Positions 12,290 through 33,711 of a stretch of DNA of 64,000 bases are shown here, piece after piece. The translations under genes were made by a program, and so were the position numbers. Positions within the stretch are counted from its first letter, which is position 1. Each line of letters opens with the position of its first letter. This DNA is from Closterium sp. NIES-65 (taxonomy: Eukaryota > Streptophyta > Zygnematophyceae > Desmidiales > Closteriaceae). The stretch spans positions 1,488,501 to 1,552,500 of the forward strand of contig CANXME010002001.1 of assembly GCA_948144175.1 (NCBI GenBank), read 5' to 3'. Under the pieces are notes generated by a model. It was not told where the DNA came from, made no database searches, and was given only the letters and a program-made list of their open reading frames with translations.

Positions 12290-13290
12290 CGGGCCCTCGC
12301 GCCACCCTTAGCGGCCCCGTCGCCGCCCCTAGCGGCCCCGTAGCCGCCCTTCCAGGCCCCTCGCGGCCCCTAGCAGCCCCGTCGCCGCCCCTACGCGGCC
12401 CGGTCGCCGCCCCTAGCGGCCCTGTCGCTGCCCCTAGCGGCCCCGTTGCCGCCTCCTTCCCTACGCTGCCCCGTTGCCGCCCCTACACGGCCCCGTCGCC
12501 GCCCCTAGTGGCCCCGTCGCTGCCCCTATGCGGCCCCGTCGCCGCCCCTAGCGGCCCCGTAGCCGCTCCCCTCCCTACGCGGCCCCGTCGCCGCCCCTAC
12601 GCGGCCTCGTCGCCGCCCCTAGTGGCCCCGTCGCTGCCCCTAGCGGCCCCGTCGCCGCTCCCCTCCCTACGCGGCCCCGTCGCCGCCCCTACGCGGCCCC
12701 GTCGCCGCCCCTACGCGGCCCCGTCGCCACCCCTAGCGGCCCCGTCGCTGCTCCCCTCCCTACGCGGCCCCGTCGCCGCCCCTACGCGGCCCCGTCGCCG
12801 CCCCTAGCGGCCCCGTCGCCGCCCCTACGCGGCCCTGTCGCCGCCCCTAACGGCCCCGTCGCCTCCTCCCTCCCTACGCGGCCCTGTCGCCGCCCCTACG
12901 CGGCCCCGTCGCCGCCCCTAGCGGCCCCGTCGCCGCCTCCCTCCCTACGCGGCCCCGTCACCGCCCCTACGCGGCCTCGTAGCCGCCCCTACGCGGCCCC
13001 GTCGCCGCCCCTAGCGGCCCCGTCGCCGCTCCTCTCCCTACGCGGCCCCGTCGCCGCCCCTAGCGGCCCCGTCGCCGCCCCTACCCGGCCCCGTCGCTGC
13101 CCCTAGCGAGCAGCCGAGCCGCCGAGCCGCCCAGCAGCTGAGCCGCCGAGTCGCCCAGCAGCCGAGCCGCCCCTGGAGCAGCCGCCCCTAGAGCAGCCGC
13201 CACTGCAGCAGCCGCCCCTACAGCAGCCGCCCCCGGAGCAGCCGCCCCTGGAGCAGCCGCCCCTACAACTGCCGCCCCTGGAGCAGCCAC
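12290..13290 (+). repeat. Copia-2 leader: ~20-bp GC-rich tandem array
   Basis: Dozens of units of the type CCCCTAGCGGCCCCGTCGCCG, with AG/TCCCTACGCGG variants grouped in a ~100-bp higher order, then a change at about 13100 to GAGCAGCCGCC units. It lies between PBS and gag. Open frames here are artefacts of the periodicity. Confidence 0.9.
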
Positions 13291-15687: not shown

Positions 15688-16187
15688 GTGTCCCAGGTAG
15701 ACGCAGTCGAGCTTGTCGAGGTAGCTGTTGACTCTGGTGCTGCTAGAGGTGCTGAGCCTGCGGGTGCCGGGTCTGGGGGTGCTGAGTCCAGGGGTGCGGA
15801 GCTTGGGGGTGCTGAGCCTGGGGGTGCTGAGTCTGGGGGTGCTGAGCCTGAGGGTGCTGAGTCTGGGGGTGCTGAGATTGGGGGTGCTGACCCTGGGGGT
15901 GCGCAGCCTAGGGGTGCTGGGTCCGCTCGTGTGGCCTCTTGGGGTGCTTCGTCGAGGCGGGAGCCACTCTCTCCGCAGGAGCTGCGCGAGTGGTTTGCCC
16001 GGCGCTGGAGCCGTGCTGCTGGAGCTGGTGGTACTACTATTGCTGCTAGTCCCAGAGGTACTCGTACTGGCGGTGCTGGAGCTGCTGGGACTAGGGGTGC
16101 TGCTGGGACTGCTAGAGTTGGTCCTGCTGGTGGTACTGCTGGAGCTACTGGCGGTACTGGAGCTACCAGTCCTACTGGAGTTGGTGC
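15688..16187 (+). repeat. Copia-2 integrase-RT hinge: 15-bp repeat encoding GGAE(P/S)
   Basis: Tandem GCTGAGCCTGGGGGT-type units (about 15733-15920) encode GAEPGGAESGG runs. They are followed by SSRREPLSPQELREWFARRW, a copy of the peptide seen in gag, then a second Gly/Thr/Ala-rich repeat (GTRTGGAGAAGT) up to the deletion junction. Confidence 0.9.
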
Positions 16188-16188
16188 T

Positions 16189-16996
16189 GCCTAGAGGGAG
16201 TCAAGACTACAGTCTATACTGACTACTGCAGTCTCAAATACATGAAGTCGCAGCCGACGCTCTCACGACGACAGATGCAGTGGGTGGACTTCTTAGAAAC
16301 TCACTTCCACTACGACATCGTCTACAAGCCTGGGCTACACAACAAGGCAGACGTGTTGAGCCGCCCCGGTCATGTAGCTGGCATCCAGCTTGACGGGATG
16401 AACCCTCTTCTCAAGGGTCTATTCCAACATGGGTACTCCGTGGACGCAGAGATCGCTACTGCATAGATCAAGAAGCTGTTACAGTGGGAGAAAGACTTAG
16501 CTGTAAGGAAGGGTTAAGGAAAGATTTGGGTACCGAATTACGCCCCGCTACGGCAGATCCTATTGGAGGAGTTTCACGACGTACCATACCGGGACATTTC
16601 GGGAGCAACAAGACGTTAGTGGGAATAGCAAAGTAATATTACTGGCCCGGGATGGAAGCAGACGTAGAGCAGTTCGTCAACTCTTGCGACACGTGCCAGC
16701 GGATGAAGAACAGCAAGTAGAAAAAAGCAGGGTTACTTCAGCCTCTACCTGTATCGGAGCAGCCATGGCAGGTCGTTAGCCTCGACTTCATCACAGGACT
16801 TCCCTCGACCTCACGGGGACATGATTCCATCCTCGTGGTGATCGACAAGTTCTCCAAAATGGGTCACTTCATACCGACCAACGCCACAGCTACAGCTGAA
16901 GCAACTGCTCGCCTCTTCTTCAACCGCATCATCACCATCCACGACATCCCCGCTACACTCATCTCAGACAGAGACCCCAAATTCACGAGTACGTTT
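16189..16996 (+). pseudogene. Gypsy A1 RNase H end and integrase N-terminal half
   Basis: Resumes gypsy A1: SLKYMKSQPTLSRRQMQWVDFLETHF and ADVLSRPGHVAG are the RNase H end. The HHCC region (FHDVPY...CDTCQRMK) is degraded by stops at about 16465 and 16515 and by frameshifts. The integrase core shows MVIDKFSKMGHFIPT, TARLFFNRIITIHDIPATLISDRDPKFTST and is cut at 16996 by copia-1. A2 carries the continuous version at 60608-59721. Confidence 0.85.
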
Positions 16997-17124
16997 TGTC
17001 AGAATGAGAGAAGTGGTTAGACTAGCAAGATTGGGAGTACAAGTAGGAAAACCCTAGAATGATGTACCCCCTAAGGCTAAACCCTCTGTAGCCTTCAGAA
17101 CAGTAACATATACAATGTTTGACA
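16997..17124 (-). repeat. Copia-1 3' LTR
   Basis: On the minus strand runs TGTCAAACATTG...TCTGACA and is preceded by a CTATGGGGGTG purine tract. Pairs with 30806-30933. Confidence 0.9.
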
Positions 17125-17364
17125 CACCCCCATAGGCTAAATGGGGGAGAACAAGGGGTCACAAGACCAGTCAAGAAAGACAAAGCAAGCTCAGGGTGAA
17201 TCACAACGTCACCACACACTCTGAGCACAAGCAAGAGGCCACAAGGCCAGTTCACATGCAAAGGCATATATGTAACACAAGCATCACAGTGATCTATACC
17301 TAGCAAAGCAAGCATGCAGGTATAGAAATATAGATCACAGTACAGGCAAAGTGTACAACAAGTG
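17125..17364 (-). other. Copia-1 3' untranslated region and purine tract
   Basis: Non-coding stretch between RNase H and the 3' LTR. Similar sequence lies after the RNase H of copia D (51288-51484) and copia C (33712-33950): GCTCAGAGTGTGTGGTGACG-like and TCTTGTGACC(C/T)CTTG blocks recur. Confidence 0.75.
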
Positions 17365-17772
17365 AGGAAAAGTGGGCACAAGCCCTAGCAAAGTGTTGAA
17401 ATGCTGATGATCACCAGACTGAAGTGCCTTGGTGAATATATCAGCAGTGTTGGCCTGAGTAGCCACGTAACGCAGACGAAGCTGACAACGCTGCTGCAAC
17501 TCTCAAGCCAAGAAGTAACGTAGAGCAATGTGCTTTGTTCTGTGCTCTAGTTTGTGCTCCTCACACAAGGCAATGGCAGCCTTGTTGTCGACGTACAGCA
17601 CTGGAGGAGAACGAGGCCGCTCTCCTAGGTCGGTCAGCAGGTAGGTGAGCCAGCATAACTCCTGTGCAGCCATAGCCTTGGCGTAGATCTCAGCGTGAGA
17701 ACTGAAGACGAACGCGTAGAACGCCACAAAACTCAGCCAGAGCCAAGGCTGAAGGTGTAACCTTGTGACGAC
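17365..17772 (-). pseudogene. Copia-1 RNase H, C-terminal part
   Basis: Encodes EIYAKAMAAQELCWLTYLL, PPVLYVDNKAAIALCEEHKLEHRTKHIALRYFLA in pieces, then TGA at about 17504 in place of Arg (copia D reads LARELQQRG), then VATQANTADIFTKAL. The upstream part of the same domain lies beyond the insert at 25819. Copia D 50870-51287 shows the uninterrupted form. Confidence 0.85.
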
Positions 17773-18189
17773 TGTCAACGCATATGCAAGGGATGCATAT
17801 GCAATAACAGTAGAGTGCGGTGCTGGGAAGTAGTATAGCAAATAGCTAAGAATGCATTGAGGTAGATAGATAAGAAGTAGTGTAGGAGGTGTAGCCAGTA
17901 GCGAAGTGTCGGTTGCAAAGGGGTGCAGAAAGGGGGAAATATGTGGGAGCGGTTGGGATGAAGGGGGAAAAGCACCGAAGGGCGAAATGTGGGATTCGAA
18001 CAAATCCCAACCTCGAGCCGCACATTGGAAATGTGCAAGCCGAGGTTGGGTAAGGTCACCCACGCCCACTCACTCGATGCCTATTGTTCAGTATTCTTTC
18101 ATACTAGTGCAGGGCTGTTATCCTAGCTACTACACGCGGTGGCACAGCACTAAGAAAGAACCGGTGGGGTGAGGGAGTGATCCCGTTCA
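17773..18189 (+). repeat. DNMT-gypsy 5' LTR (417 bp)
   Basis: Bounded by TGTCA and TTCA. Contains ATATGCAAGGGATGCATATGCA near the left edge (two ATGCATAT-like blocks), a strong stem-loop at 18006-18050 and the self-primer candidate at 18080-18094. Confidence 0.9.
18006..18050 (+). promoter_or_regulatory. Nested inverted repeat in the DNMT-gypsy LTR
   Basis: CCCAACCTCG (18006-18015) pairs perfectly with CGAGGTTGGG (18041-18050); inside, GCACATT (18020-18026) pairs with AATGTGC (18030-18036). The right LTR keeps the outer stem and has one mismatch inside. It lies 30 nt upstream of the self-primer segment, so it could be a promoter element, a binding site or an RNA hairpin. Confidence 0.7.
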
Positions 18190-18203
18190 TACTGAACAAT
18201 AGG
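18190..18203 (+). other. DNMT-gypsy primer-binding site, self-complementary to its LTR
   Basis: TACTGAACAATAGG starts one base after the LTR. It is the exact complement of 18080-18093 in the LTR (15 nt counting the last LTR base). It does not begin TGG as a tRNA-type PBS would. This matches Tf1/sushi-type self-priming, where the 5' end of the element RNA folds back on the PBS. The right LTR carries the same primer segment near 25613. Confidence 0.8.
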
Positions 18204-18218
18204 ACGCGACACGCAGTC

Positions 18219-21026
18219 ATGGATAAATATGAGCTACGTTGGGGTAGGGTGTTTAGTCGCCGGGAGGAGGAACGAGCACGAGGTGAGCCGTCACGCGAGC
18301 GCGGGCGATCTCTGGAGCGCTCGCCGCGAAGGCCGGCATTTCGCGCAGATAGAGTCCCCGTCGCTGGGGACCGACGGGCGGAAGGGAGGCCTAGCGTGGC
18401 AGCGGGTGGAGAAGGATACGCCGCAAGCGCGGACGGAGACGTGTGGCGAAGAGGGCATGATCGCGGAGATGGATACGGGAGCGGAGACCGACGCGCTGTG
18501 GGAGTGTTCCGCTCGCCGGAAGAGCGCGGGCGTCGCCGTGATGAGAGGGGCCGTCGGCAGGGCGTCGAGCGATTCGACGCCAACCAAGGAGGGGAGGCCG
18601 CAGAAAAGGAAGAAGCGTGGGAGACGTCCGGCGAGGAAGAGGCAGAGGAGGACGCAGCGAACCTGGAACAGGCGGTCGAAGACACCAACGGAGAAGATGA
18701 CGGCGAGGAACCCGCGGCTGGGATCGGAAGCGCCGAGCCTGAAGAGGCGGACGTTGCCGGGGGCGCAAGCCAGGCAGGGGCGGAAGGATCGCGGTCGGGA
18801 CGGTCGGAATCACGCGGCCGCGACGCAAGCCGCCAGGAGGAGCATTACGCGGAGAGGTCGCGTCAGCAGGAGCGGCGGGACTGGGGCGTGCATGCCGGCG
18901 CTGTGGGGACGCAAGGAGAACGCGGCAAAAGGGAGGAAGAGGGACCGCGCGCGTCAGGGGAAGGATCGCGGCGCTGGGAGCGGCCTTCTGTTAACCCTCG
19001 CGCACTCGACTGGCGCCAGGCACAAGGGGGCTGGGGCGAAGACGGCGCACGATCACCGGACAGGGAGCTGATGCACAAGGGAGGATGGGAGGGCGAGCCA
19101 CGCGCAGCCAGCCACCACTGGCGGCGGGAAGAAGGACGCGAGGAGGGGCCCAGCTCATCAGAGAGGCGCGGCCAGCGGCAAGAGGGGCGCGGCGGGGAGG
19201 CACGGACGTCTGGCCCGCAAGCGCTATGGGAGAGGAGGGTGAGCGGCGGATTCCGCTCGCCTCTCGTCCGGCAGCAGCGGGGAAGAGAAGGCGGCGGAGA
19301 CAGGCGCTCGCCCGGAGATCGTCGGCAGCAAGGAAGGGGAGAAGCATGGGAACCGTCGCCAGAGAGGCAGCGGCAGCGAGAGACGAGCACGGCGAGGTGG
19401 AGAGAGACACGAGTCTCGCCGGCACGAACGCGAGGGCGTGCGGGGGAGGAGAGGGGCCCGAGAGAAAGGCACGGTGACTCGGGCTGGAACCGGCGGGAGA
19501 GCAGAGCTGGAGGGGGGAGCTTAGCATATGGCGCTGAGCGGGCCCGAGAGGCCAGGGAAGGCATGGAGAGGGCCAAGGAGAGAAGGACTGGGGAAGAGCG
19601 GCTGGGAGGGGCCAGGGAATCGTGGGGAGAAGGGCGGGGAAGTACAGCCAGCGCGACGCGGGTGGAAGTGCCGGCGAGGTTCTCGGGGGACCAGCGGGTG
19701 GGGCCGGCCCTCAAGAATTACTTGATGCAGGTGGGGAACGTGAGATACCGCTGTGACAGGCAAGGCATGGACCCAGTAGACTTCTTCTTGAGCCTGCCCA
19801 ACACACTGGAGGGAGAGGCGGAGACCCTGTACCGCATGAGGATGGACGAGCTGCTGTGGAGGGCAGGGAGGTACGGGGAGGATCCCACCGAGGCATTTTT
19901 GGAGCGGCTTCAGCGTCAATTCCCGGGACACACGGCGGAGCGCATAAGGGAGTTTCAGGAGTTCAGGAGGGGACGAACAGAATCCCTACTGACCTACTAC
20001 AACCGACTGATAAACTTGGCGGAGGATGTGAAATGTTCGGACAGCAGCCTCCTCATCAGTAAGTTTCTTGGAGGCCTGGACGAAACACTGGGGGGGGGAC
20101 TGAGGATGAGGGTGTACGAGTTGGGGGCGGATGCGGCACTAGAGGAGGTGTTTGACCTGGCGGAAAGGGTGGAGCTGGCACAAAGGAGGTATGAGGCCTA
20201 CCTGCCGAGGCCGACAGAGAGGAGCCGCAGACCGACATGGGCGGCGGCTATGATACCAGAGGAGCGAGGGAGGGTGGACCCACACGGGGAAGAGAGAGCC
20301 GACGCGCGCACCTGCTACCGGTGTGGACAGATGGGGCACCTCCGCAGAGAGTGCAAAAACTGTGATGGATGTGGGAAGCCTGGGCACCGGAAACGAGAAT
20401 GTCCGGATGCGGCGAAGTGTGAAATCTGCGGGAAGAAGGGGCACGAGGCCAAGGAGTGTTACCAGCGGGAGGGAGGGGCAAGGAGGAAACCAGAGGAGCT
20501 GCAGCGGCAGATCAGCAGGCTGCAGTCTCAACTGCAGGCCATGGGGTCAGGGTGGGGAGCGGAGGCGGGGATGTACGCTAGGGACGAGGAGGGAGAAGGG
20601 GTGGAGCCGGACGTGCAATGTGCCCTCATGGCCTGGAGAGGCAGGGAACAGATGGGGCTGCGTAGCGGGGGGAAGGATGGCAGGCAGGAGCATAGCCGAA
20701 AGCCACGTGAGCAGGGGTCCAGGCCGGATGCGCCAGGAGGAGAGAAGACCCCAGCCCGCCACCCGCAGGAAAGACTCGCGTGCCAGACCTCGGTGCTGCT
20801 CGTGGAAGCAGGAGCGGTGGAAGTGGGGGGGATGAAGGTAAAGACGGCGATCATTGACACAGGAGCACAGAGCGTGATGCTGGGTAAGGGGATGGCCGAA
20901 CGGTTGGGGCTGATGGCCCCTGAGAGGCACGTGGCGAAGGGGATGTTAGTCATGACAGCAGAGGGAGGGGAACCAAAGTGGATGCCGTGCACACGGACCC
21001 CCATAGAGTTGACACTGCTGCCATGA
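18219..21026 (+). CDS. DNMT-gypsy Gag-protease
   Basis: Start chosen at ATG 18219 because the frame upstream lies in the LTR/PBS. Residues 1 to about 480 are an extremely Arg/Glu/Gly-rich, probably disordered region. A retrotransposon capsid domain follows from about 484 (FSGDQRVGPALKNYL, DPVDFFLSLPNTLEGEAETL, FLERLQRQFPGHTAERI, RGRTESLLTYYNRLINLA). Three consecutive CCHC knuckles, CYRCGQMGHLRREC, CDGCGKPGHRKREC and CEICGKKGHEAKEC, occupy about 699-747. The aspartic protease active site is IIDTGAQSVMLG (Asp about 880). Codon 936 is TGA (21024-21026), inside the protease: the same frame continues after it with ESEDFDLLMGTELV, the usual protease C-terminus. Gag packages RNA; the protease would mature the polyprotein. 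I read the TGA as a recent CGA-to-TGA change, but stop readthrough cannot be excluded. Confidence 0.9.
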   Translation: MDKYELRWGRVFSRREEERARGEPSRERGRSLERSPRRPAFRADRVPVAGDRRAEGRPSVAAGGEGYAASADGDVWRRGHDRGDGYGSGDRRAVGVFRSPEERGRRRDERGRRQGVERFDANQGGEAAEKEEAWETSGEEEAEEDAANLEQAVEDTNGEDDGEEPAAGIGSAEPEEADVAGGASQAGAEGSRSGRSESRGRDASRQEEHYAERSRQQERRDWGVHAGAVGTQGERGKREEEGPRASGEGSRRWERPSVNPRALDWRQAQGGWGEDGARSPDRELMHKGGWEGEPRAASHHWRREEGREEGPSSSERRGQRQEGRGGEARTSGPQALWERRVSGGFRSPLVRQQRGREGGGDRRSPGDRRQQGRGEAWEPSPERQRQRETSTARWRETRVSPARTRGRAGEERGPRERHGDSGWNRRESRAGGGSLAYGAERAREAREGMERAKERRTGEERLGGARESWGEGRGSTASATRVEVPARFSGDQRVGPALKNYLMQVGNVRYRCDRQGMDPVDFFLSLPNTLEGEAETLYRMRMDELLWRAGRYGEDPTEAFLERLQRQFPGHTAERIREFQEFRRGRTESLLTYYNRLINLAEDVKCSDSSLLISKFLGGLDETLGGGLRMRVYELGADAALEEVFDLAERVELAQRRYEAYLPRPTERSRRPTWAAAMIPEERGRVDPHGEERADARTCYRCGQMGHLRRECKNCDGCGKPGHRKRECPDAAKCEICGKKGHEAKECYQREGGARRKPEELQRQISRLQSQLQAMGSGWGAEAGMYARDEEGEGVEPDVQCALMAWRGREQMGLRSGGKDGRQEHSRKPREQGSRPDAPGGEKTPARHPQERLACQTSVLLVEAGAVEVGGMKVKTAIIDTGAQSVMLGKGMAERLGLMAPERHVAKGMLVMTAEGGEPKWMPCTRTPIELTLLP

Positions 21027-21050
21027 GGGGAGCATGAAACAAGGATCAGG

Positions 21051-24000
21051 ATGAAGTGTGGAATCTCGGAGTCCGAGGACTTTGATCTGCTGATGGGGAC
21101 GGAATTGGTGTTCGCTGTAGGCATGAGCATATGTACCTGGATGGAGAAGGTGGAGTTACGAACGAGATACTGGAAGAAGGAGGGACCATTGGGGCAGCTG
21201 CCAGTGCAGTTTGTAAGGGTGGAGCCGAAGCGGGCCTATCAGGTCGGAGCAGGAGGGGCACAAAGGGGGCAGAGAGGAGCAGCAGAGACCAAGGAGGGGC
21301 CCAGGATGAAACTGATGGACAAGCCGGGGCAGCATAGCGATTGGCAGCAGCCCATCCGGCTAGTAGAGTTGTTCGGAGGAATCGGGGCAGGGCTGGCGGC
21401 AGCAGTGAGGAGTGGGATTGCAGTGCAGCAGTGGGTCTATGTGGAACTGGCACCACAGGTGAGAAGGATGGCTGAGCATCACGCGCGGAAGCTGAGAGCT
21501 GAGTTCCCGGACCTCCTGAGTGAGAAAGTAATTCAGGAAGCCATGAGCAGTACGGTGCACGATGTGAGTCAGATCACAGAGGAGCAGGTGGCCAGCTGGG
21601 GGCAGGTGGACCTGCTGGTGGCGGGATGGGAGTGTCAAGGGGTGTCATGGGCAGGAAAACGGAAGGGAGGGGAGGACCCGAGGACGAAGCTGATGGACAA
21701 CCTGTTCAATATCCTGGAGTGGCTGCAGGAGAGGCAGGGCAGAGTGGCTTACTTGCTAGAGAATCTGGATCTAGAAGGGGATTGTAGAGAGCCGATTCGG
21801 CTGGTGAGGGAGAGGATTGGCCGGCACGTGGGAAAAGGGATGAGCTGTGATGCAGCCAGGGCAGGTTCGTACGCTCACCGCCTCAGGATGTACTGGCAAA
21901 ACGTGGTTCCCGTGCTGGATCTGCAGGAGGAAGCAGAGGGGATGAGGAGGGCTGCAGGGAGGAGGGTGGTGGACATCCTGGAGCCGGGACGGACTCCCGC
22001 GCCAGTTTGTCAAAGAAGTTACAGCAGGCACTACCCGTGCAACCAGGTGGGGCAGGACAGGAGGGCTCTGCCCACCTTGGTCGCTTTTGCAGAGGCAGCA
22101 GGCTACAGGTGGGAAAAGGGGGAGCCCGGACCCGGGCTGATATATGACCACAAGCGGGGACGGTGGGAGGAACCGACGGCATTAGAGAGGGAGCTGGCTA
22201 TGGGATATGGAGAAAACGTGACGGCAGCACCAGGGGTGAGCGAGGAAGACAGGAGGAGGGCAATGGGGAATGCCATGGATGGCTACATGATGAGGTGGCT
22301 GGTGCAGAGGATGTGGCGAGAGATGGTCTTGGGTGGGGGGCAAGAGGCAGATAAGGTGGCGGCAGCAGCAGCCCCACAAGGAGCATGGACCTGCCAGGAG
22401 GAGGAGGGAGGGAAGTGGACAGTGGGGGAAGCGATGAGTGAAGAGGGAAGGGAAGCTATGCTGGGACTGCTGGCCAAGCATAGGAAGTGCTTTGCCTTCA
22501 CACTGCAAGAACTGGGAAGGTGCAAAATGAAGGAGATGGAGCTGAAACTGAGCAGCACAGAGCCGGTGTTCCAACGGCGTAAGAAGATGCCGCACGGAGA
22601 TATAGAGATATGCAAGGAGAAGATTAAGGAGCTGCTAGCGGCCGGACTGATCCGGCGCTCAGAATCAGAATACGCCACACCAACAGTGGTGGCAGCGAGG
22701 AAGGACTTAACAGGGGAGATCCTGAGCAGGAGGATGTGCGGAGATTACCGAGCGCTCAACAAGATTACCGTGGCGGACAGGTACCCAATGCCGATGGCGG
22801 AGGAGATATTTGACAAGTTAGCAGAGGGGGTGTTCTTTACGACGCTGGACCTGCGGCAGGGGTTCAATCAGATAAAAATCAGGGAGGAGGACGTTAGGAA
22901 GACGGCATTTCACGGGCCGGATGGGCTGTACGAGTGGCTTTACATGCCATTCGGGCTGAGGAACGCATCAGCAGTGTTTCAGAGAGTCGTGGATGCAGTG
23001 CTGAGGGACGTAGAATGTGCAGCGTGCTACATAGATGACGTGGTGATATTCAGCACCTCCGAACAGCAGCACCTGCAGGATGTGGAGAAGACACTGGCAG
23101 CAATAGAAGCAGCGGGACTCACGTGTCACCCGAAGAAGTGTAGGTGGGGTGAGCAGACCGTTCAGTATCTGGGCTACGAGGTGACAGGGGGGCAGATCGG
23201 GATCCAGCAAGCAAAGGTGGAGGTGCTAGATAGGCTGCGAGAACCAAAGGACAAGACAGGGCTGAGAGCGGTGTTGGGGTTTCTGAGTTACTACCGGCGA
23301 TTTGTGCCCAACTTCAGCAGGCGGGCAGCGGTGTTGAACGGACTGTTAAGGGAGGACAAGACATGGGAGTGGGGGGAAGCGCAGAAGGGGGCATTGCAGG
23401 ACCTGATGGCGGCGGTGAAAACAGCAACCGTCTTGCAGCTGCCAGCAGCGGACCAACCCTTCACCCTCTACACCGACTGGAGCAGCCAAGGGATGGGTGG
23501 GATACTCTGCCAGGAGGTGGAAGGGGATGAGAAGGTGGTGGCCTACGCGAGTAGGAGCTGCAACTCGGCGGAGGCACAGTACAGCTCGTACACAGGGGAG
23601 GGACTGGCGGCAGTATGGGCTGTGGGGCACTTCAGGGTCTACTTGCAGGGGCGGGAGTTCACCCTGGTGACGGACCACCAGCCACTGACATGGCTGATGA
23701 CTACACCAGGGTTAACAGGCAGGAATGCACGATGGGCAATGAAGCTGCAGGAGTATGACTTCAAAATCAAGCACAGGCCAGGAAAAACCTTGCAGCATGT
23801 GGACGGCCTCTCCCGTAACCCCCCACCGCTAGAGCCAACAGTGACCCTTGCGCTCCTGGCCAGACAGGTGGAGCTGAGCGGGGCCAGGAGGAGCAAGGGG
23901 CCGGCTGATATCTGGGAGGATGAGCAGGCTGTGAGATGGGTGAAGGGAGAGACAGGGGCAGACGAGGAGATGAGCGAGAGGGTGAGAGCAAGGGGGCACC

Positions 24001-25220
24001 ACTACAGGTGGTACCAGCAGCAGTTGCAGATACAGACCGAGGGTGGGTGGAAGCTGGTGCCGGCCCCAGGTGACAGGGAAGCAGTGATAAAGGAGGTGCA
24101 CTCAAAGCTGGGGCACTTCGGGCATGAGAGGACAGTGCAGTTGTTGAAGACGGGCTGGTGGTGGGAGGGAATGCGCAGGCAGGTGCAGAAGTGGGTGGAG
24201 GGATGTGAGGCCTGCCAAAGGAGCCGAGCAAACCTGACCCAAGCCAAGGCCGAGCTGCAGTCCCTGCCCATCCGCGGGTTAGGCTTCAGATGGTCCTTGG
24301 ACCTGGCGGGGGAACTGCCGCTGAGCCGGGGGGGGAAACGGTACATAGTGCTCATGGTGGAGCACGTGAGTAAGTGGCTGGAGGTGAGGGCTATCCCCAG
24401 CAAGAGCTCAAGACATGTGGCAGCAGCATTCAAGGAGCAAGTAATATGCAGATTTGGGGCGTGTGCAGAGGTGCTCACCGATCAAGGCACAGAGTTTCAA
24501 AGGGAGTTCAGGGAGCTGTTAGAGGAAGCGGGAATCACCCACTGGCACACCTCTCGGTATCACCCACAGAGTGATGGGCTGACCGAGCGCCTAGTGCAGA
24601 CGTTGAAGCGAGGGCTACGGGCATATGGGGAGAAAAGGAAGCGGGAATGGGACAATGAGCTACACTGGATTGCGGCAGGATATAGGTTTGGGAAGCAGGC
24701 AGCCCTGAGAGACCATTCACCCTACAGCCTTCTGTTTGGTTGTGAGCCGGTGCTACCTGTGGGGGCACCACGGGTCCTCACGGACACAGTGACAGCAGGC
24801 ACCATAGACAACTGGGTGGCCTTGTCAGAGGCCAGAGCAAGGTACCTCCGAGTGATAATGCCAGCAGCGCTAGAAAACCTACACACGGCACAGCTGAGAG
24901 ACGCCAGACGTTATGAGCAACGCCAGCAGCAGGGGATGTTGGGAAGGAGAGAGAAAAAGGGAGCAAGCGAGGGGCAGGAGGTGTACCTGAAAAGGGCAAA
25001 ACAGGACACGCTGGACGTCGGGGTGGGGACCGAGAGGTGGAGAGTGAAGGAAGTTCGGCCCTCGGGTATTCTCGTGCTGGAGAACGAAAAGGGGGCACAG
25101 CTGAAGGAGCACCAGACCAACATGGCCCTGGTGAGGGGGAGCAAGCCTCAGCAAGCTGGTCCTGTGACACGAGCTCGAGCTACCCAAGCACGGGCACAGG
25201 AGGGGGCAGTGAGTGACTGA
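21051..25220 (+). CDS. DNMT-gypsy Pol: DNA cytosine methyltransferase + RT + RNase H + integrase
   Basis: In frame with Gag-protease; first ATG after the TGA used as start (1,389 aa). Residues 1-50 finish the protease. C5 methyltransferase about 101-425: motif I LVELFGGIGAG (SAM binding), motif II VYVELAP, motif IV AGWECQGVSWAGKRKG with the catalytic Cys195 (codon 21633-21635), motif VI YLLENLD, motif VIII AHRLRMYWQNV, motif X RRRAMGNAM. Motifs VIII and X resemble DNMT3/DRM. RT about 480-770 (CGDYRALN, TTLDLRQGFNQIKI, YMPFGLRNA, active site YIDD 660-663). RNase H about 800-920 (LYTDWSSQGMGG, LVTDHQPLTWL). Integrase with HHCC (HSKLGHFGHERT...CEACQRSR) and DDE (WSLDLAGEL, VLTDQGTEF, HPQSDGLTERL). 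No chromodomain. Every catalytic site is present, apart from Glu replacing the usual Pro before Cys195. Likely acts in cytoplasmic particles (RT) and the nucleus (integrase, methyltransferase). Confidence 0.92.
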   Translation: MKCGISESEDFDLLMGTELVFAVGMSICTWMEKVELRTRYWKKEGPLGQLPVQFVRVEPKRAYQVGAGGAQRGQRGAAETKEGPRMKLMDKPGQHSDWQQPIRLVELFGGIGAGLAAAVRSGIAVQQWVYVELAPQVRRMAEHHARKLRAEFPDLLSEKVIQEAMSSTVHDVSQITEEQVASWGQVDLLVAGWECQGVSWAGKRKGGEDPRTKLMDNLFNILEWLQERQGRVAYLLENLDLEGDCREPIRLVRERIGRHVGKGMSCDAARAGSYAHRLRMYWQNVVPVLDLQEEAEGMRRAAGRRVVDILEPGRTPAPVCQRSYSRHYPCNQVGQDRRALPTLVAFAEAAGYRWEKGEPGPGLIYDHKRGRWEEPTALERELAMGYGENVTAAPGVSEEDRRRAMGNAMDGYMMRWLVQRMWREMVLGGGQEADKVAAAAAPQGAWTCQEEEGGKWTVGEAMSEEGREAMLGLLAKHRKCFAFTLQELGRCKMKEMELKLSSTEPVFQRRKKMPHGDIEICKEKIKELLAAGLIRRSESEYATPTVVAARKDLTGEILSRRMCGDYRALNKITVADRYPMPMAEEIFDKLAEGVFFTTLDLRQGFNQIKIREEDVRKTAFHGPDGLYEWLYMPFGLRNASAVFQRVVDAVLRDVECAACYIDDVVIFSTSEQQHLQDVEKTLAAIEAAGLTCHPKKCRWGEQTVQYLGYEVTGGQIGIQQAKVEVLDRLREPKDKTGLRAVLGFLSYYRRFVPNFSRRAAVLNGLLREDKTWEWGEAQKGALQDLMAAVKTATVLQLPAADQPFTLYTDWSSQGMGGILCQEVEGDEKVVAYASRSCNSAEAQYSSYTGEGLAAVWAVGHFRVYLQGREFTLVTDHQPLTWLMTTPGLTGRNARWAMKLQEYDFKIKHRPGKTLQHVDGLSRNPPPLEPTVTLALLARQVELSGARRSKGPADIWEDEQAVRWVKGETGADEEMSERVRARGHHYRWYQQQLQIQTEGGWKLVPAPGDREAVIKEVHSKLGHFGHERTVQLLKTGWWWEGMRRQVQKWVEGCEACQRSRANLTQAKAELQSLPIRGLGFRWSLDLAGELPLSRGGKRYIVLMVEHVSKWLEVRAIPSKSSRHVAAAFKEQVICRFGACAEVLTDQGTEFQREFRELLEEAGITHWHTSRYHPQSDGLTERLVQTLKRGLRAYGEKRKREWDNELHWIAAGYRFGKQAALRDHSPYSLLFGCEPVLPVGAPRVLTDTVTAGTIDNWVALSEARARYLRVIMPAALENLHTAQLRDARRYEQRQQQGMLGRREKKGASEGQEVYLKRAKQDTLDVGVGTERWRVKEVRPSGILVLENEKGAQLKEHQTNMALVRGSKPQQAGPVTRARATQARAQEGAVSD

Positions 25221-25303
25221 GGCAGGGCAGCACAGAGCAGGGAGTGTTGAAGAAGAACAACAGGAAGAAGAGCAAGTGCTGGTGAGGGTCACACACTCCG
25301 ACA
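25209..25303 (+). repeat. 95-bp segment X, copy 1 (before right LTR)
   Basis: Runs from GTGAGTGACTGAGG to CACTCCGACA, overlapping the Pol stop codon and including a purine-rich part (GAAGAAGAACAACAGGAAGA). It is repeated without visible change at 25724-25818. Confidence 0.95.
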
Positions 25304-25305
25304 GC

Positions 25306-25722
25306 TGTCACCGCATATGCAAGGGATGCATATGCAATAACAGTAGAGTGCGGTGCTGGGAAGTAGTATAGCAAATAGCTAAGAATGCATTGAGGTAGAT
25401 AGATAAGAAGTAGTGTAGGAGGTGTAGCCAGTAGCGAAGTGTCGGTTGCAAAGGGGTGCAGAAAGGGGGAAATATGTGGGAGCGGTTGGGATGAAGGGGG
25501 AAAAGCACCGAAGGGCGAAATGTGGGATTCGAACAAATCCCAACCTCGAGCCGCACATTGGATATGTGCAAGCCGAGGTTGGGTAAGGTCACCCACGCCC
25601 ACTCACTCGATGCCTATTGTTCAGTATTCTTTCATACTAGTGCAGGGCTGTTATCCTAGCTACTACACGCGGTGGCACAGCACTAAGAAGGAACCGGTGG
25701 GGTGAGGGAGTGATCCCGTTCA
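25306..25722 (+). repeat. DNMT-gypsy 3' LTR (417 bp)
   Basis: Near-identical to 17773-18189 (about three differences), implying recent insertion. Confidence 0.95.
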
Positions 25723-25723
25723 C

Positions 25724-25818
25724 GTGAGTGACTGAGGCAGGGCAGCACAGAGCAGGGAGTGTTGAAGAAGAACAACAGGAAGAAGAGCAAGTGCTGGTGA
25801 GGGTCACACACTCCGACA
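25724..25818 (+). repeat. 95-bp segment X, copy 2 (outside the right LTR)
   Basis: Same sequence as 25209-25303. It sits between the LTR end and the copia-1 target-site copy (CGATC at 25819), so it came in with the element or arose at its end. Confidence 0.9.
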
Positions 25819-27009
25819 CGATCACTGAGTAGCCTGGTCATCAACCCAAGAAGCGTCTGAGTGCCCAGTGAGAACAACTGAGCTCCTCCCTCCAAGCACG
25901 AGCCCCATGCCCGATGTACTGCACAAGTAGCGCGATACCCTCTTTGCAGCATCCCAGTGCACCTTTCGGTGCCTACCAGCAGCCATGTAGCGGGCCAGAA
26001 GGCCAAGAGGGTATGCTAGGTCAGGACGAGTGCAAGTCATCAGGTACATGAGGTAGCCAACTAGCTCTGGGTAAGGACCACTCGGCTCTACGGACTCATC
26101 CGAAGGCAGAGCTGAGAGCGAGTGACTTGTAGCCAGAGGAGTGGCGTCTGCCGAGGACCAGGTGAAGCCGAAGTGCTGAAGGACCTGCTGCACCATGTGT
26201 GACTGAGTCAGTGTGATGGTGCGGCGTGCTCTGTCCCGGGTGATCTGCAAGCCAAGGTAGCTGCGCAGTTCACCCAGGTTTGTGCACGTGTGTCTCTTCT
26301 GCAGCTCCGACTTCACGTGGGCGAGAGCCTCAGTGTCAGTAGTGGCAAAGACCAAGTCGTCGACGTACACGAGGATGTAGAACGGCGGCATCGTCATGTC
26401 GGTGCGCAAAAACAGTGACGGGTCAGCAGTAGAGGGCGCGAACCCAAGAGCCGCAAGAGTAGTCCTCAGTGTGTCATGCCACTCACGTGGCGCCTGGCGG
26501 AGACCGTAGACCGGCCACCGGAGGCTCCATTGGGTACCGAGAGGAAACGACCTAGTGAAGCCAGGAGGGCGGCACAGCCAGATCTCCTCGTGCAGGCTGC
26601 CCTGCAAGAAAGCTGTGCTGAAGTCAAGAGAGTGAGGATCATAGTCACGCTGAGCGGCAACGTGCTGTAGCACCCAAAGAGTGGTCATCTTTGGGGTGGG
26701 GGAGAAGGTCTGAAAGTAGTCAACTCCCTGCCGCTGACTGAAGCCTCGAGCCACGTAACGAGCCTTGAAGACAGGCGGAGAACTTGGCGGCCGCTTCACC
26801 CTGAAAATCCACATGCCATTGACGATGTTCGCCCCAGGAGGGGGAACCTCGTCGACGTAAGTACCAGTGGACTTCCAGGATGCCATCTCTGCGTCCATGG
26901 CTGTCTGCCACTGAGAGGAGTACTCACCCGCGATCGCCTCAGCGTAAGAGCGCGGGGTCAGGATGTCTGGTGCATCCGGGTCTCCCTCAGGTGCAATCAG
27001 CATGGACAC
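25819..27009 (-). pseudogene. Copia-1 reverse transcriptase and RNase H start
   Basis: Copia RT of nearly 400 codons without a break: SMLIAPEGDPDAPDI, KSTGTYVDEVPPPGANIV, VFKARYVARGFSQRQGVDYF, LHSLDFSTAFLQGSLHEEIW, VYGLRQAPREWHD, and YILVYVDDLVFATTD with the YVDD active site. RNase H starts at LTGHSDASWVDDQATQ and is cut by the DNMT-gypsy insertion; the remainder lies at 17365-17772. Before that insertion this was probably the most intact copia RT in the window. Confidence 0.9.
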
Positions 27010-28328
27010 GAGATGAGGTAGAGCAGCGGCAAAGCACTCAAATTCCTCCTGCCTGTACTCAAGGACGTCCGTGCCAAGAGCACACTCACCCTTGACGGAC
27101 GGAGGACAGACAGACTCAGACTCAGCAACAACACTGGTGGCGTAGTCTAGATGACAGCGAGCAGCAAAGTCGACAAGCTCATCAACTAGGGCAGACGCAG
27201 CAGCAGACTTAAAGGAGGGTCAGTGACAGCTGTGGCCAGGATACGCGTGATAGTAGGACTAGCAGCACGAAGAGAGTCAGACTCTGGGTCAGCAAGGGCA
27301 CGAAGAGAGGACGCAGGAGAAGAAGGCAGAGGTACTCGCTGTGGAGCAGTAGAAAGGCGAAGCGTCATCTGGTGAGTGCCTGGGACAGCAGGAGGACGCT
27401 GACGCGGGACACTACGACCAGTGCGAGCAGCTCAAACAGGTGACGCAGAACGAGACTCAGGCGACACAGGACGAGACTCCGGCTCACGACGCTCCGTAAG
27501 ACCTCCTGTCGGACTAGTTTAGGGAGAAGGACTAGGTCGTGACGAGGCAAGCTGTAACTGTGCCTGCGACTGAACAGATGGAGGACACTCTAAGGAGGGA
27601 GCAGGACAAGGAGGAGGAGGCTGACCAAGAACCTGCTGAAGGAGCGGAACGAAGTACGGCTGCGGTCGTGAAGCGCCCTCAGAACCAGCAGAGACCGCAC
27701 CAGAACCCCCAGCAGCAGCTCCAACGGCATCCTCAGCTCCAGCGGCAGCTCCAGCAGCTCCAACACCTGCAGCTCCAACTCCAGCACCAGCAGCACCTCC
27801 AGTAGCACCAGCTCCAGCAAACCCCCCCCCCAAGTCCCAGCAGCTCCAGTATCGCCTGTACGAGCACCTCCAGGACCAGAGGCTCCCGTACCTCCAGCAG
27901 CACCACAGCCTCCAGCGGGCGGCACCCCAGTGCTAGGAGCACCGCTCCGGAGGCTGTAGTGCCGAGCGTACCACTCATGCAGTCGCTGTGGGGAAGGAGG
28001 CGACGGCTGCGACCCAGCACCCGCAGCACCACCAGCTCCAACTCCGGCAAAACCCCCAGCTCCAGCAGCCCCACGCCGGAGGCTGTAACACTGAGAGTAC
28101 CACTGACGCAACTGCTATGAAGAGGGAGCATCACCAGGCGCAGGGCGGTCAGTCTCAGCTGCCCCAGGCTAAGCACCCCTAGGCTCAGCACCCCCAGGCT
28201 TAGCACCCCCAGGCTCAACACCCCCAGTCTTAGCACCCCCAGTCTCAGCACCCCCAGGCTCAGCACCCCCAGGCTCAGCACTCCCAGGCTCAGCACCCCC
28301 AGTCTCAGTACCACCAGGCTCAGCACCC
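27010..28328 (-). pseudogene. Copia-1 integrase-RT linker and GAEPGG hinge
   Basis: Low-complexity linker with several frame breaks. 28160-28330 is a 15-bp CCCCCAGGCTCAGCA tandem (GAEPGG on the minus strand). Two copies of the LREWY peptide occur (QLRQWYSQCYSLRRG and SPQRLHEWYARHYSLRSG). A Gly/Ala/Val-rich tract at about 27700-27840 follows. No enzyme domain. Confidence 0.8.
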
Positions 28329-30188
28329 CTAGTCTTTGTACCCCTCGCAGGACCAGAGTCGACAGCTACCTCGACAGGCTCGACCGGGTCTACCTTGGAA
28401 ACACCTGAGGGAGCATGACCCAGGGGAGGGAGGGGGTCTACCGAAGTAGCACCTGGCGTGAGAAAGAGCGGCGAGGGGGGGACCGGCGCAGTGCGGTAGG
28501 GGGAGCGGCGCAGTGCGGTAGGGGAACAGACGGTAAAAGGGTACCGACTCGTCAAAAGTGACGTCCTGAGAGGGGAAGACACGGCGCGAGGTGGGGTGGT
28601 AAAACTGCCAGCCAGGCGCGTTAGGGACAAAGCCAAGAAAGACGCAGGGAACGGCATGGGAGGAGAGCTTGTCCACTGACGTATCGCGGACAAAGGCTCG
28701 ACATCCCCAGACTCGGAACACCGACGCATCTCCAACCTTCCCCGTCCAACGCAGTGTGGGCGAGGTCTCCGGAGCAGAGACACGGGGCCAGAGGTTGAGC
28801 TGATGCGCAGCGTACTGCACTGCAAACGGCCACAGGAAATGGGGGGCAGCCGCATGGATCATGGAGGTACGAGCGACCTCCATGACTAAGCCAGTGCGGC
28901 GCTCAGCAAAGATATCAATTCCCTTCTTAAGCAGATCAGCCCAGCGGGGCAGCTCAGAGGCGTCAGGGAATTGCTCGCGCCAGGCGTCGTCGAGACGAAA
29001 GAAGCAGCGCTACGCCGCGTGAAACCTCCCACAGGTCTGGCCAGTGCAGTCACCTGTGCGGATGACGTACGGGCAGGTACCCTCACCCCCAGACCCCCCA
29101 CGCTGAGAGAACCACTCACGGAGCTGCTGGGATGACGGGGTCTCGCTAGGACGCTGCTGCTGCTTCCTCTGGCCACCTCCGATCCCCCCACGCTGCAACG
29201 CTCCACCGCGCCCGCCACCGGCTCCACTGCCGCCACCACTGCCACCACCACCCCTGCCACCCCCGTCAGCGCCGCCGCCACCACCCCCGGCTCCGCCACT
29301 GACCCCCCCACCACCAGTACCACTCCCACCACCGCCACCACCCCCGCCGCCTCCACCCCCTCCACCACCGCCGCCCCTGCCGCCACCTCCGCCACCCCTG
29401 CCCCCCTTGCCCCTGCCGCCCTTGCGCCTCCCACTAGGAGCAGACGCAGCCGCGACCCCCTCAGCACCGAGGTAGTTGACAGCAGCAGCAGATGCAATGG
29501 AGGGGAGGAGGGGGACGGGGGAGCACCCCTCAAAGAAGGGAGTGCGAGGGTCGCCACGAGAGGCACCTACAGCTACAATGCTCTTCTTTGCTGCTAGGAG
29601 TTCCTTCTCGAGCAGGTCGGCAGTGAGGTCGGTAGGGGAGAGGGCGAGAAAGTGGTCCCTGACAGTGCGAAGGGAGTCAGGGAGGCGGGTGACTAGTTGA
29701 TAGAGTGTGAGGTACATCGGGGGAGGGTTCTTGGCTAGGAAATCGGGGGGAAGCGCGGCACGGTAGCGAAGATCACTAGTGCGGAGGTGCGTGATGACGT
29801 CAGCTACAGTGGCAAAAGCAGACGGATCGGGGAAGAGATAGGGCAGTGAGAGACGGCCTATCGCAGCAGTAGCAGGGGAGAATTAGCGTGCAACTACAGC
29901 GTCGTACAGCTCCTTAGCGGTCTTATGCTGGCCAAAGTGCTCGCGCTCATCTAACGGTAGGTGGCTGCGAACAGCTAGGCGAGCGTGAGCGTCACGGGTC
30001 TGCCACTGTGAGCGAGCAGTGCTGTCAGCAGTAGTAGCAGGTGCGGGAGCGGCGCCGGACGTGTGGTAAAAAAGGGAAACATCGTCCTTGGCAGTGATCT
30101 GGAGGAACAGGTGCAGGTCATCGAGCCAAACGTCAAACTTAATCGGACGGCCCTCAGAGTCAAAGGTGAGAACTGTAGGACTAGCCAT
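28329..30188 (-). pseudogene. Copia-1 gag fused to integrase C-terminus by internal deletion
   Basis: Gag begins MASPTVLTFDSEGRPIKFDV at 30188 and continues WLDDLHLFLQI, EHFGQHKTAKELYDAVVAR then TAA (copia D has Tyr). Further on: YLTLYQLVTRLPDSLRTVRDH, a long Gly-rich (GGN)n tract at 29200-29430, SSQQLREWFSQRGG and the Cys motif CPYVIRTGDCTGQTCGRFH. After DLLKKGIDIF at about 28906 the sequence jumps to AERRTGLVMEVARTSMIHAA, the integrase C-terminal half. The protease, pre-integrase and catalytic integrase core, roughly 1.2 kb in copia D, are missing. Non-autonomous. Confidence 0.85.
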
Positions 30189-30805: not shown

Positions 30806-30933
30806 TGTCAGAATGAGAGAAGTGGTTAGACTTGCAAGATTGGGAGTACAAGTAGGAAAACCCTAGTATGTTGTACCCCCTAAGGCTAAACCTATTGTAG
30901 CCTATAGAACACTAACATATACAATGTTTGAAA
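30806..30933 (-). repeat. Copia-1 5' LTR
   Basis: Pairs with 16997-17124. Terminal CA has become AA on the + strand at 30932-30933. Confidence 0.9.
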
Positions 30934-31795
30934 AGTTTTGGAAGGAGCTCATGGGATTGTTGGGGACAAAACTTGCGATGTCTTCATAATACGACCCACA
31001 GACTGATGGACGGACTGAGCGACTCAATCAGGTGGTTGAACAGTTACTGTGCACAGCTTGCAAAGATGACATCAGCCACTGGGACACACAGTTACCGACA
31101 TTAGAGTTCGCTTACAACAACGCGTCACATGCGGCCACAGGGAAAACTCCTTCCTGTGTTACGGACAGGAACCACTTACCCCACAGCAGCCAGCCACACA
31201 AGCACACGTCCAAGCCGCACATGACTTTGTCACCACCATGCAGCAGCTATGGGAGAAGATTCAGCGAACTACTCACCACGATGTAGACCTCCCAGAAGCA
31301 GTATGCCGATCGGTGAGCGACGTGATCACTCAGTAGCAGTCGGAGATCAGGTGCTTCTTGACACGCGCAACTTGAACCTGTCTCACCTCCCATCCAAGCC
31401 CCGGCCTCGCTTCTGTGGTCCTTTTCTTGTTGAGGCACAGGTGACACCAGTAATATTCCGCTTGCGTTTACCAGATACATGGAAGCTTCACAACGCTTTC
31501 CATGTTCAGCTACTGAAGCCCTACAAGGACCCCAACCAGCAGTTCCAGGGACGCCAGCTACCGCCACCACCACCTGTTCTCATCCAGGATGAACCAGAGT
31601 ACGAAGTGGAGCGCGTTCTCACTCATCGGCGGCGCGGCGGCAAGACTCTCGAGTTCCTGATACGCTGGAAGGGATACGACCCCACTGAGGAAAGTTGGGT
31701 TGTTGAAGCTGATATGGGCAACGCACGCCGTGCTCTCAATGATTATCTTGTCGAGCAGGGTGTTTCTCACGCCACCCAGCTTTGAGGGGGGGACG
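30934..31795 (+). pseudogene. Gypsy A1 integrase C-terminal half, GPY/F and chromodomain
   Basis: Integrase resumes at KFWKELMGLLGTKLAMSS with the catalytic Glu region YDPQTDGRTERLNQVVEQ and PTLEFAYNNASHAATGKTP. After frame breaks the frame from 31321 gives RRDHSVAVGDQVLLDTRNL, the GPY/F-like FCGPFLVEAQVTPVIFRL, LHNAFHVQLLKPY, then the chromodomain: EYEVERVLTHRRRGGKTLEF, LIRWKGYDPTEESWVVEAD. Chromodomains of chromoviruses steer integration to heterochromatin. The frame ends HATQL-stop at 31783-31785, followed by the GAGGGGGGGACG polypurine tract. Confidence 0.9.
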
Positions 31796-32166
31796 TGTGA
31801 GAGTACGACGACTTATGCTGGCTTTGCTAGCTTGCCTAAACTTTATTGCGCTATATCAAGATCGGGTTTATTTTATCATGCATAGATATGCCTGATTTCC
31901 TAGGTTAGGTGCATTCCTACATTTTACTCTAGTTATAGCACCGAACCAGGTTACATGTACCGAACTCAAGCCTATTCGGTTTTCCACCGAATTGCTTTCT
32001 ACTGAGTTTGGGAAGGTTCTGTTTGGGGTGCTTCGCGACCCTCAGAACATTCGCGTAACACCTGGGTAACTGGCCTTGTGTCGAGACTATATATAGTCTC
32101 GTGTTGTACCCAGGTGAATCATTCAATTCAAGCCCACTTTTCTGAGCTCGATCCTAGATCCTCACA
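31796..32166 (+). repeat. Gypsy A1 3' LTR (371 bp)
   Basis: Begins TGTGAGAG and ends CCTCACA. Contains the TATA palindrome at 32082-32101. A second copy lies at 40303-40673. Confidence 0.9.
32059..32116 (+). promoter_or_regulatory. TATA box in a 20-bp perfect palindrome, within a larger inverted repeat
   Basis: CGAGACTATATATAGTCTCG (32082-32101) is a perfect palindrome around TATATATA. It is enclosed by CACCTGGGTA (32059-32068) and TACCCAGGTG (32107-32116), also perfect complements. The same arrangement is in the other LTR at about 40566-40623. It is the likely core promoter of the gypsy A LTR. Confidence 0.75.
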
Positions 32167-33711
32167 CAGCTGCCAGACAGTGTTCTCAGGGAAGGCTGCG
32201 TGAAACCCGGGGGCTCGCCGGAGGAAAATGCGCTCGTGCAGGTCGCCCTGCAGGAACGCATTGGAGACGTCCATGGAATCGATTTCCATGTTGTCACGTG
32301 CACCAATGTCGAGGGCGGTGCGAAGGGTGGGGGGTTTGGCGGTGGGGGCGTAGGTGAACCAGTAGTACTCAGCCCAAGTCTGCGTGAAGCCCTTGGCGCA
32401 GTAGCGTGCTTTGTACACCGGTTCTTCGCCCGGCAGCTGCTTCACCCGAAAGACCCATTTGCCGTCAACGAGGTTAGCGCCCGCAGGGAGGGGGACATCG
32501 ACAAAGGAGTCTTTGCGAATGAAAGCCTCACACTCCAAGAAGATCGCTGCCATACATTTATCCGCATCAAGGCAGGTGATGGCTTCCTGGAAGGTGGAGG
32601 GAGTGAAGATGGTGGGGGTGGTGGTGGCACCAAGGACGGGAAAGCCCAGGAAGTCAAGGTAGAGGGAGGTAAGGAACGGAGTGTGCTCCCGAATGTTGAG
32701 AAACTCTTCATGGGAGTCCTCAAGGAGCTGAATGGAGGCAGAAGGAGGAGCCCCAAGGATTTTGTCCACAGAGCGGGTATGGATGTAAGGGAGGAGGAAG
32801 GGGGAGGAGCGGGAAGTGGCACGACGCCGCTGCTGCTGCTGGTGCTGCTGAAGCTGCTGCCCTTGTTGTTGCGGCTGCGGCTGACCGTGCTGTTGCTGTG
32901 TCTACTGAGGCTGCTGCTGCTGCTGCTGCTGCTACTACTGCTGCTGCTGCTACTGCTGCTGCTGCTGCTGCTGCTGCTGTCCCGGTTGCCGCTGCTGCTG
33001 CTGCTGCCCCGGCTGCTGCGGCTGCTGTCCTGAGTGCTGTTGCTGCTGCTGCTCCCTCGGCTGCGGCTGCTGCTGCTGCTGCTGCTGATCCGGCTGCTGG
33101 AAGGAGGGAGAGGGAGAGGAGGAGGGAGAGGGGGGAGGGGATGCAGCCGAGTGAGCGGGGGAAGCGGGCGCGGCAGGGTCGTAGACGTCGGCGGAGGAGG
33201 AGGGCGGGAGTGGGGTGGCGACGGGTGGGAGGAGAGGGGCTGGAGGGAGAAGGGGCGGGAGGACGGTGTCAGTCCAGGCGAGGGGACGAGTGGGAGGAGG
33301 GAGAGGATCAGGGGGAGGAGTGGAGTAATAGGGAACCGATTCGTCGAAGACGACGTCGCTGCTGCGGATGAGGCGATTGGTGGGAGGGTGGAGGAAGAGG
33401 TAGCCTGGGGAGTCGCGGTTGTGCCCAAGGTAAACGCATTCCAGGGCGCAAGGAGCAAGCTTGCCAGCGGCGCGGGAGCGGTCGGCGGGTGGGATGAGAA
33501 CGAAGGCCTTGCAGCCCCAGACGCGAAGGCCGGCAGCGTCAGGTTTGGCGTTGGACCAAAGCTTTGTGGGGGAGGAGGAAGGATGCTGAGGGTGGGAGCG
33601 GAGATTAAGGAGAAGGGCGACGTGGAGGAGGGCATAGCTCCAGAGGGAAGGAGGGGTGGAGGCATGAGCAATGAGACAGCGAGCTATCTTGGTGATCTCA
33701 GGAATGCGGCT
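32167..33711 (-). pseudogene. Copia B, segment copy 1: integrase C-terminus, polyQ linker, RT start
   Basis: Minus-strand copia, different from the copia-1/D/F family. From right to left: PEITKIARCLIAHASTPPSLW, LRVWGCKAFVLIPPADRSRA, CVYLGHNRDSPGYLFLHPP, SSDVVFDESVPYYS (integrase C-terminal part); a long Gln-rich tract from CTG/CAG repeats (32817-33095); LVDGKWVFRVKQLPGEEPVYKARY, SMDVSNAFLQGDLHERIFL and PGFHAAFPENTVWQL (RT start). RT ends where the gypsy LTR begins (32166/32167). The left element boundary is therefore a gypsy A insertion into copia B RT. At 33711 the sequence breaks into copia C. Confidence 0.85.
32817..33095 (-). repeat. CTG/CAG repeat encoding polyglutamine in copia B linker (copy 1)
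   Basis: Runs of CTG with CTA, CCC and CGG interruptions give up to about 15 consecutive Gln codons. The paralogous tract at 41335-41565 is shorter and differently interrupted. Confidence 0.9.

Follow-up and report, generated by a model that had tools for sequence, protein, structure and literature searches.

Retrotransposons bearing DNA methyltransferase (DNMT) domains were published in 2018, among them a gypsy element with DIRS-type repeats (de Mendoza 2018, PMC5890265), and a 2025 survey places DNMT3 members in retrotransposons of streptophytes and dinoflagellates (PMC12344493). According to the 2018 account, KnitGypsy-Dnmt3 of Klebsormidium nitens holds a DNMT3-type domain inside the Pol polyprotein of a long terminal repeat (LTR) gypsy element, while SymbioDIRS-Dnmt3 of Symbiodinium holds one in the Pol of a DIRS-like element with a tyrosine recombinase, in two coexisting domain orders. 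Two SymbioDIRS-Dnmt3 domains, both copies tested, are reported to have methylated CG in yeast; no methylation was seen with KnitGypsy-Dnmt3, a test that the authors called inconclusive, human DNMT3B having been negative as well (PMC5890265). Here we describe a Ty3/gypsy element at 17773-25818 of a 64,000-nucleotide stretch of Closterium sp. NIES-65 (assembly GCA_948144175.1, contig CANXME010002001.1, positions 1,488,501 to 1,552,500; termed the window). It is a further example of the KnitGypsy-Dnmt3 kind from another host class, and the first-pass annotation of this DNA was right that the class is known from Symbiodinium and Klebsormidium.

We consider it probable that this element is a recent insertion of a multi-copy Closterium Ty3/gypsy family, belongs to one lineage, encodes between protease and reverse transcriptase (RT) a DNMT3-type C5 methyltransferase with all catalytic motifs, and works by the self-methylation of complementary DNA (cDNA) and the self-priming proposed below. 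As methylation normally silences transposons, a methyltransferase long kept by an element poses an open question.

A methyltransferase domain within the pol frame

The pol frame of the element is open over 1397 amino acids; a C5 cytosine methyltransferase comes first in it, then RT, RNase H and a DDE integrase. The PF00145 search called for by the first-pass annotation gave a significant match (E=2.1e-6; 27.8 bits, the cut-off being 22) in the protein that also carries RVT_1, RNase H, H2C2 and rve, and a profile of the element's relatives spans the whole domain with 443 bits. Among NCBIfam models, the general dcm model alone matched the domain, below its own cut-off. The upstream frame (18108-21026) carries zinc knuckles (PF00098, E=6.6e-11) and a retroviral-type protease whose gag-asp match (9.2e-5) lies under the Pfam curated cut-off; with this match, protease, RT, RNase H and DDE integrase follow one another as in Ty3/gypsy. 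A cytosine methyltransferase had been predicted to be built into a Ty3/gypsy polyprotein between protease and RT, and PF00145 and the relatives' profile bear this out. The description of the reading frame as nearly clean holds for pol, but gag-pol is a single frame interrupted by one TGA, some 310-325 bases upstream of the methyltransferase domain. A programmed stop at this place is unsupported: Closterium relative P0001 has no stop at the corresponding position and reads through. With the relatives' profile, no second methyltransferase copy was found in six frames of the window at E<=0.01, and no DNMT in its other gypsy copies.

Affinity to DNMT3 and conservation of catalytic residues

The structure predicted for the domain has a pLDDT (predicted local distance difference test) of 90.6, and DNMT3A/B are its nearest neighbours among solved C5 methyltransferase structures, by sequence profile as well as by predicted fold. 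The profile comparison gave 1.5e-22 for DNMT3A, 2.2e-8 for DRM2-named chains, whose score the DRM rearrangement itself lowers, and 8e-4 for DNMT2. Fold, motif order and motif VIII (AHR.R..W.N) resemble those of the DNMT3A/DNMT3B catalytic domain, whereas identity is only about 20% and motif IV reads ECQ instead of PCN; neither PWWP nor ADD was matched in a Pfam search of the element's proteins. Motifs VIII and X had earlier been called DNMT3/DRM-like. The likeness to DNMT3 stands on profile and predicted fold, whereas a DRM-like origin is ruled out, because the DRM domain is described as rearranged (PMC5890265) and the motifs here run from I to X in canonical order, without permutation.

The domain may alternatively be of phage or viral origin. 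PHROG phage methyltransferase families match almost its full length (phrog_116, 3e-16), and three viral contigs carry enzymes 21-26% identical to it. However, the best BFVD fold match (6.4e-15) is weaker than that of DNMT3A (2.0e-17), profile and single-sequence scores not being directly comparable, and two scans found no viral contig with the element.

The C5 motifs I, IV, VI, VIII and X occur in the order first reported for them, but motif IV is ECQ, not PCQ. The catalytic Cys, Glu and Arg are all present in the window domain, and across aligned relatives the catalytic Cys, the motif VI Glu and the motif VIII Arg are nearly invariant. Beside the Cys, where Pro is replaced by Glu in the window, 93 aligned rows have a residue: 70 of them have E, 20 have P, and D, S and G occur once each; the DNMT tree (56 rows) requires at least seven E/P switches. 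This prevalence of Glu and its repeated switches would suit a protein of methyltransferase fold that is retained without catalysis, like DNMT3L, or that works on a different substrate, for instance the RNA of the element, with the Glu by the Cys marking the change. Such a role seems improbable to us: catalytic residues this constant are unlike a dead enzyme, some relatives retain PCQ, and the RNA methyltransferase DNMT2 scores far below DNMT3A. The widespread ECQ variant also gives a natural opportunity to learn the role of the proline in C5 methyltransferases. Among the matches listed, Marchantia polymorpha P0146 and P0157 have the DNMT directly ahead of a gypsy RT and read WPCQ in motif IV.

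Relatives of the element

The closest relatives of the element are Closterium proteins, which made up 29 of the 31 proteins in a first search. Querying with the Pol length and the DNMT region returned 53 proteins, including Cymbomonas, Haematococcus and, weakly, Edaphochlamys (7e-3). The RT part found 537 proteins below 1e-10, of which the best 120 were used; P0146 and P0157, both with PF00145, a K. nitens RT (P0122) and a Calypogeia RT (P0147) are among the matches listed. Altogether, 120 of 189 collected proteins have the domain and 67 have it nearly whole, a fraction that is no measure of frequency, the searches having been aimed at domain carriers. By these matches, the domain-bearing Pol family spans relatives in Cymbomonas, Haematococcus and Marchantia, a breadth that is an addition of the present work; in the openly licensed literature, where the ECQ motif and the two Pol positions described next were not searched by name, we found no report of such elements in these genera or in Closterium.

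As in SymbioDIRS-Dnmt3, two domain orders coexist. Among the 87 proteins with both domain and RT, the domain lies ahead of RT in 48 (PR-RT type, named for protease and RT) and after RT-RNase H in 39 (RNase H-IN type, IN being integrase), and it precedes the integrase in all 53 of the 53 proteins showing one. A PHD finger follows the integrase in P0049, P0051, P0065, P0072 and P0077, five order-checked proteins of the RNase H-IN type; one is also listed for P0112, P0142 and P0143 of the PR-RT type, and none was found in the Closterium element by Pfam search. Within Closterium, 12 of 53 proteins with the domain have it nearly whole, a single match covering 270 profile positions or more. The domain is not confined to the window copy, and other family copies hold it in one piece; judged from these proteins, the family is multi-copy and includes sound as well as decayed copies or gene models.

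One lineage or several captures

A careful RT tree (LG+C20) was built from 48 of 111 RT rows, namely the 110 rows of a FastTree set and P0146, and included 9 of the 22 rows outside the lineage. It sets 39 rows apart from the nine DNMT-less gypsy rows at 100/100; 32 of the 39 have the domain and seven are not judgeable, and the group holds both the element and the partial, domain-less K. nitens P0122. The RNase H-IN type forms one group at 100/100, while the PR-RT type takes one side of a branch at only 85/49. In the FastTree of 110 rows the lineage also holds together (88 rows, support 99). Fifty-six of these rows show no domain, 22 outside the lineage and 34 inside, and in 31 of the 34 the lack of a domain before RT is not judgeable because they start at most 145 residues ahead of RT. 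The other three are P0098, P0183 and P0150; P0150 stops 117 residues past RT.

Fifty-seven of 71 rows entered the DNMT tree, 14 near-copies having been omitted; DNMT3A and three phage enzymes were the only outgroup, and the tree was rooted on them together. The 53 retrotransposon DNMT rows stand apart from these four at 100/99, and the RNase H-IN type forms one group at 91/87, nested in the free tree inside the PR-RT type, although two sister groups are not rejected by an approximately unbiased (AU) test (p=0.51). Distances in RT are correlated with those in DNMT across all 38 elements with both (r=0.66), within the 13 elements of the first type (r=0.88) and within the 25 of the second (r=0.58); in none of the three cases did any of 2000 permutations reach the observed value, as expected if RT and DNMT travelled together. 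These trees suggest that the element is a member of one domain-carrying gypsy lineage present in chlorophytes, charophytes and liverworts. Most likely KnitGypsy-Dnmt3 belongs to it as well, although P0122 itself shows no DNMT and may not be KnitGypsy-Dnmt3. The K. nitens acquisition was described as independent (PMC5890265); our RT tree suggests one wider lineage instead, a preference that rests on the partial protein P0122. Transfer between algae may have occurred.

Several independent captures, in which different gypsy elements each took up a host DNMT3 gene, would explain the two Pol positions and fit the independent K. nitens acquisition of the 2018 paper (PMC5890265), and, as plant DNMT3 and ChloroDNMT are absent from our tree, a host gene could fall between the two types. 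Both types nevertheless lie within the one RT group at 100/100 and the 53 DNMT rows stand together, so that we regard several captures as unlikely; a separate capture at each Pol position is not supported by the trees. Extending the single-lineage reading, we propose tentatively, with a little less than even confidence, that one DNMT3-type capture founded a lineage across chlorophytes, charophytes and liverworts, in which catalytic residues were kept, the domain moved between two places in Pol, motif IV Pro changed repeatedly to Glu, and the host elements self-prime, carry split repeats and use a DDE integrase. If this is true, self-methylation would be a long-standing replication strategy of green-plant gypsy elements and no rare accident.

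Split terminal repeats and a putative self-priming signature

Self-BLAST of the window identified two pairs of direct repeats, 17772-18189/25305-25722 (99.3%) and 25209-25303/25724-25818 (100%). Read together with an empty site, a related copy of the surrounding element that lacks the insertion at 50849-50853 and supports the target duplication, they give an A-coding-B-A-B layout: flank CGAC, A1 (TGTC...), coding region, B1, GC, A2, C, B2 (...GACA) and flank CGAT (Table 1). The terminal repeats are split, with A at the left end and B at the right. The target duplication, whose copies differ by one mismatch, falls outside B2. At the internal junctions the pattern is CA-NN-TG in both cases, namely CAGCTG where B meets A (B|A) and CACGTG where A meets B (A|B). 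By the 3 differences in 417 bp between its A repeats, the window copy is young.

A and B repeats are similarly split between the ends of PAT/Ngaro elements, which use a tyrosine recombinase (PMC4157794), whereas the window element, also unlike SymbioDIRS-Dnmt3, has a DDE integrase (H2C2/rve) and, unlike PAT/Ngaro, a target duplication. A Pfam search of the gag and pol frames matched no tyrosine recombinase, a DIRS/PAT trait. The A-B-A-B repeats could be an accident of the window copy and no feature of the family, produced by integration of a two-LTR circle or by misassembly: the layout was seen in one copy, and a linear cDNA with an LTR of B+A would be expected to yield an A|B junction on circularisation. 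An accident is on the unlikely side in our judgment, given the target duplication outside B2 and the DIRS-type repeat structure stated for KnitGypsy-Dnmt3 in a figure legend (PMC5890265).

A segment of A1 and the site directly after it form a 15-nucleotide perfect complement, a putative self-priming signature. The longest complement in 2000 shuffles of A1 was 11, and the leader fold containing the 15-nucleotide stem has z=-4.2. The self-priming elements Tf1/Tj1 are described with a like layout, in which a stretch upstream in the LTR is complementary to a site that follows the LTR (PMC4600332); in the window element, the stretch at 18080-18094 would lie at a putative RNA 5' end. In this comparison, no chromodomain is among the element's Pfam matches.

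Table 1. Features of the element and its target site, in window coordinates
Feature	Position	Strand	Basis or remark
Left target site duplication copy, 4 bp (CGAC)	17769-17772	.	flank compared with empty site 50849-50853
Repeat A1, LTR-like, TG...CA, left terminus	17773-18189	+	3 differences/417 against A2
Proposed self-primer in A1, putative RNA 5' end	18080-18094	+	complementary to 18189-18203
Proposed primer binding site directly after A1	18189-18203	+	complement of 18080-18094
gag, zinc knuckles, protease part of gag-pol frame	18219-21026	+	stop 21024-21026; Pfam; open reading frame (ORF) 18108-21026
pol frame: DNMT, RT, RNase H, integrase	21027-25220	+	ORF, Pfam
DNMT3-type C5 cytosine methyltransferase domain	21336-22322	+	Pfam, relatives' profile, predicted structure
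Motif I	21360-21392		
Motif IV (GWECQG), catalytic Cys codon	21633-21635		
Motif VI (EN)	21759-21764		
Motif VIII (AHRLR)	21873-21887		
Motif X (GNAMD)	22266-22280		
RT + RNase H	22464-23774	+	Pfam, relatives' profile
DDE integrase (H2C2 + rve)	24045-24704	+	Pfam, relatives' profile
Purine-rich tract ahead of B1, possible plus-strand primer	25198-25208	+	sequence
Repeat B1, overlapping last pol codons	25209-25303	+	identical to B2 over 95 bp
Repeat A2	25306-25722	+	pair of A1
Repeat B2, right terminus (...GACA)	25724-25818	+	identical to B1
Right target site duplication copy (CGAT)	25819-25822	.	flank comparison; one mismatch to left copy

Proposed self-methylation

LTR elements package their Pol products together with the RNA, and these products act on the cDNA. 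We propose that the enzyme is made as part of Gag-Pol and would enter the particle with RT and integrase, where minus-strand synthesis would begin by Tf1-like self-priming. The DNMT would then methylate the element's own double-stranded cDNA de novo, before or at integration, and a new insertion would therefore be born methylated. Circular or end-joined DNA would join A and B, and cutting of the B|A junction by the integrase would produce the split-repeat insertion. For the element, the gain might be early silencing by which the host is spared, or evasion of a sensor that recognises unmethylated DNA.

The enzyme might instead target the host genome in trans, where it would silence competitors or alter chromatin. 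For Symbiodinium, an influence on the host methylome is raised as a possibility (PMC5890265), and Closterium has many copies; fusion within Pol, however, ties the enzyme to particles, and the K. nitens methylome is described as plant-like despite such elements (PMC5890265). We think action in trans decidedly improbable.

Several observations weigh against self-methylation of the cDNA by an active, single-lineage enzyme. The ratio of observed to expected CpG is 0.51 in the DNMT, 0.46 in the integrase and 0.61 in the RT region, 0.98 in gag and 0.70 in the whole element, compared with 0.40-0.65 in the surrounding domain-less copia and 0.87-0.89 in the window's DNMT-less gypsy, and CpG depletion thus gives no clear scar of self-methylation. 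The enzyme could be weakened by the Glu that replaces Pro next to the catalytic Cys, the window copy has its stop ahead of the domain, and 41 of the 53 Closterium proteins show the domain partial, split or in truncated models. Inside the RT group, P0098 shows no domain despite 632 residues ahead of RT, nor does P0183 with 181 residues ahead of RT and 207 between RT and integrase. The split repeats, finally, are seen in the window copy alone.

A multi-copy family in several Closterium strains, with relatives in the genetic model Marchantia, provides material for asking whether new copies are methylated, and whether this helps or hurts them.

Surroundings of the element

The DNMT element is inserted in a copia-like element (17021-17772 and 25818-28909; copia by eye, ORF 25822-27219), and the related copia-like copy that retains the empty site lies at 48705-51586. 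A second, decayed gypsy family, with RT and integrase and no DNMT found, occupies 59576-64000 on the reverse strand and 5834-12020, 16183-16998 and 30933-31245 on the forward strand, in pieces 88-95% alike; its RT groups on a long branch with DNMT-less rows in a quick tree whose named outgroup is not one side of a branch. Diverged tandem arrays of one family lie in four places (5092-5588, 12279-13108, 44770-45257 and 56751-57623), those at 12 kb and 45 kb oriented oppositely to the other two, and a direct-repeat pair of 2.4 kb, 95% alike, lies at 31271-33712 and 39779-42182.
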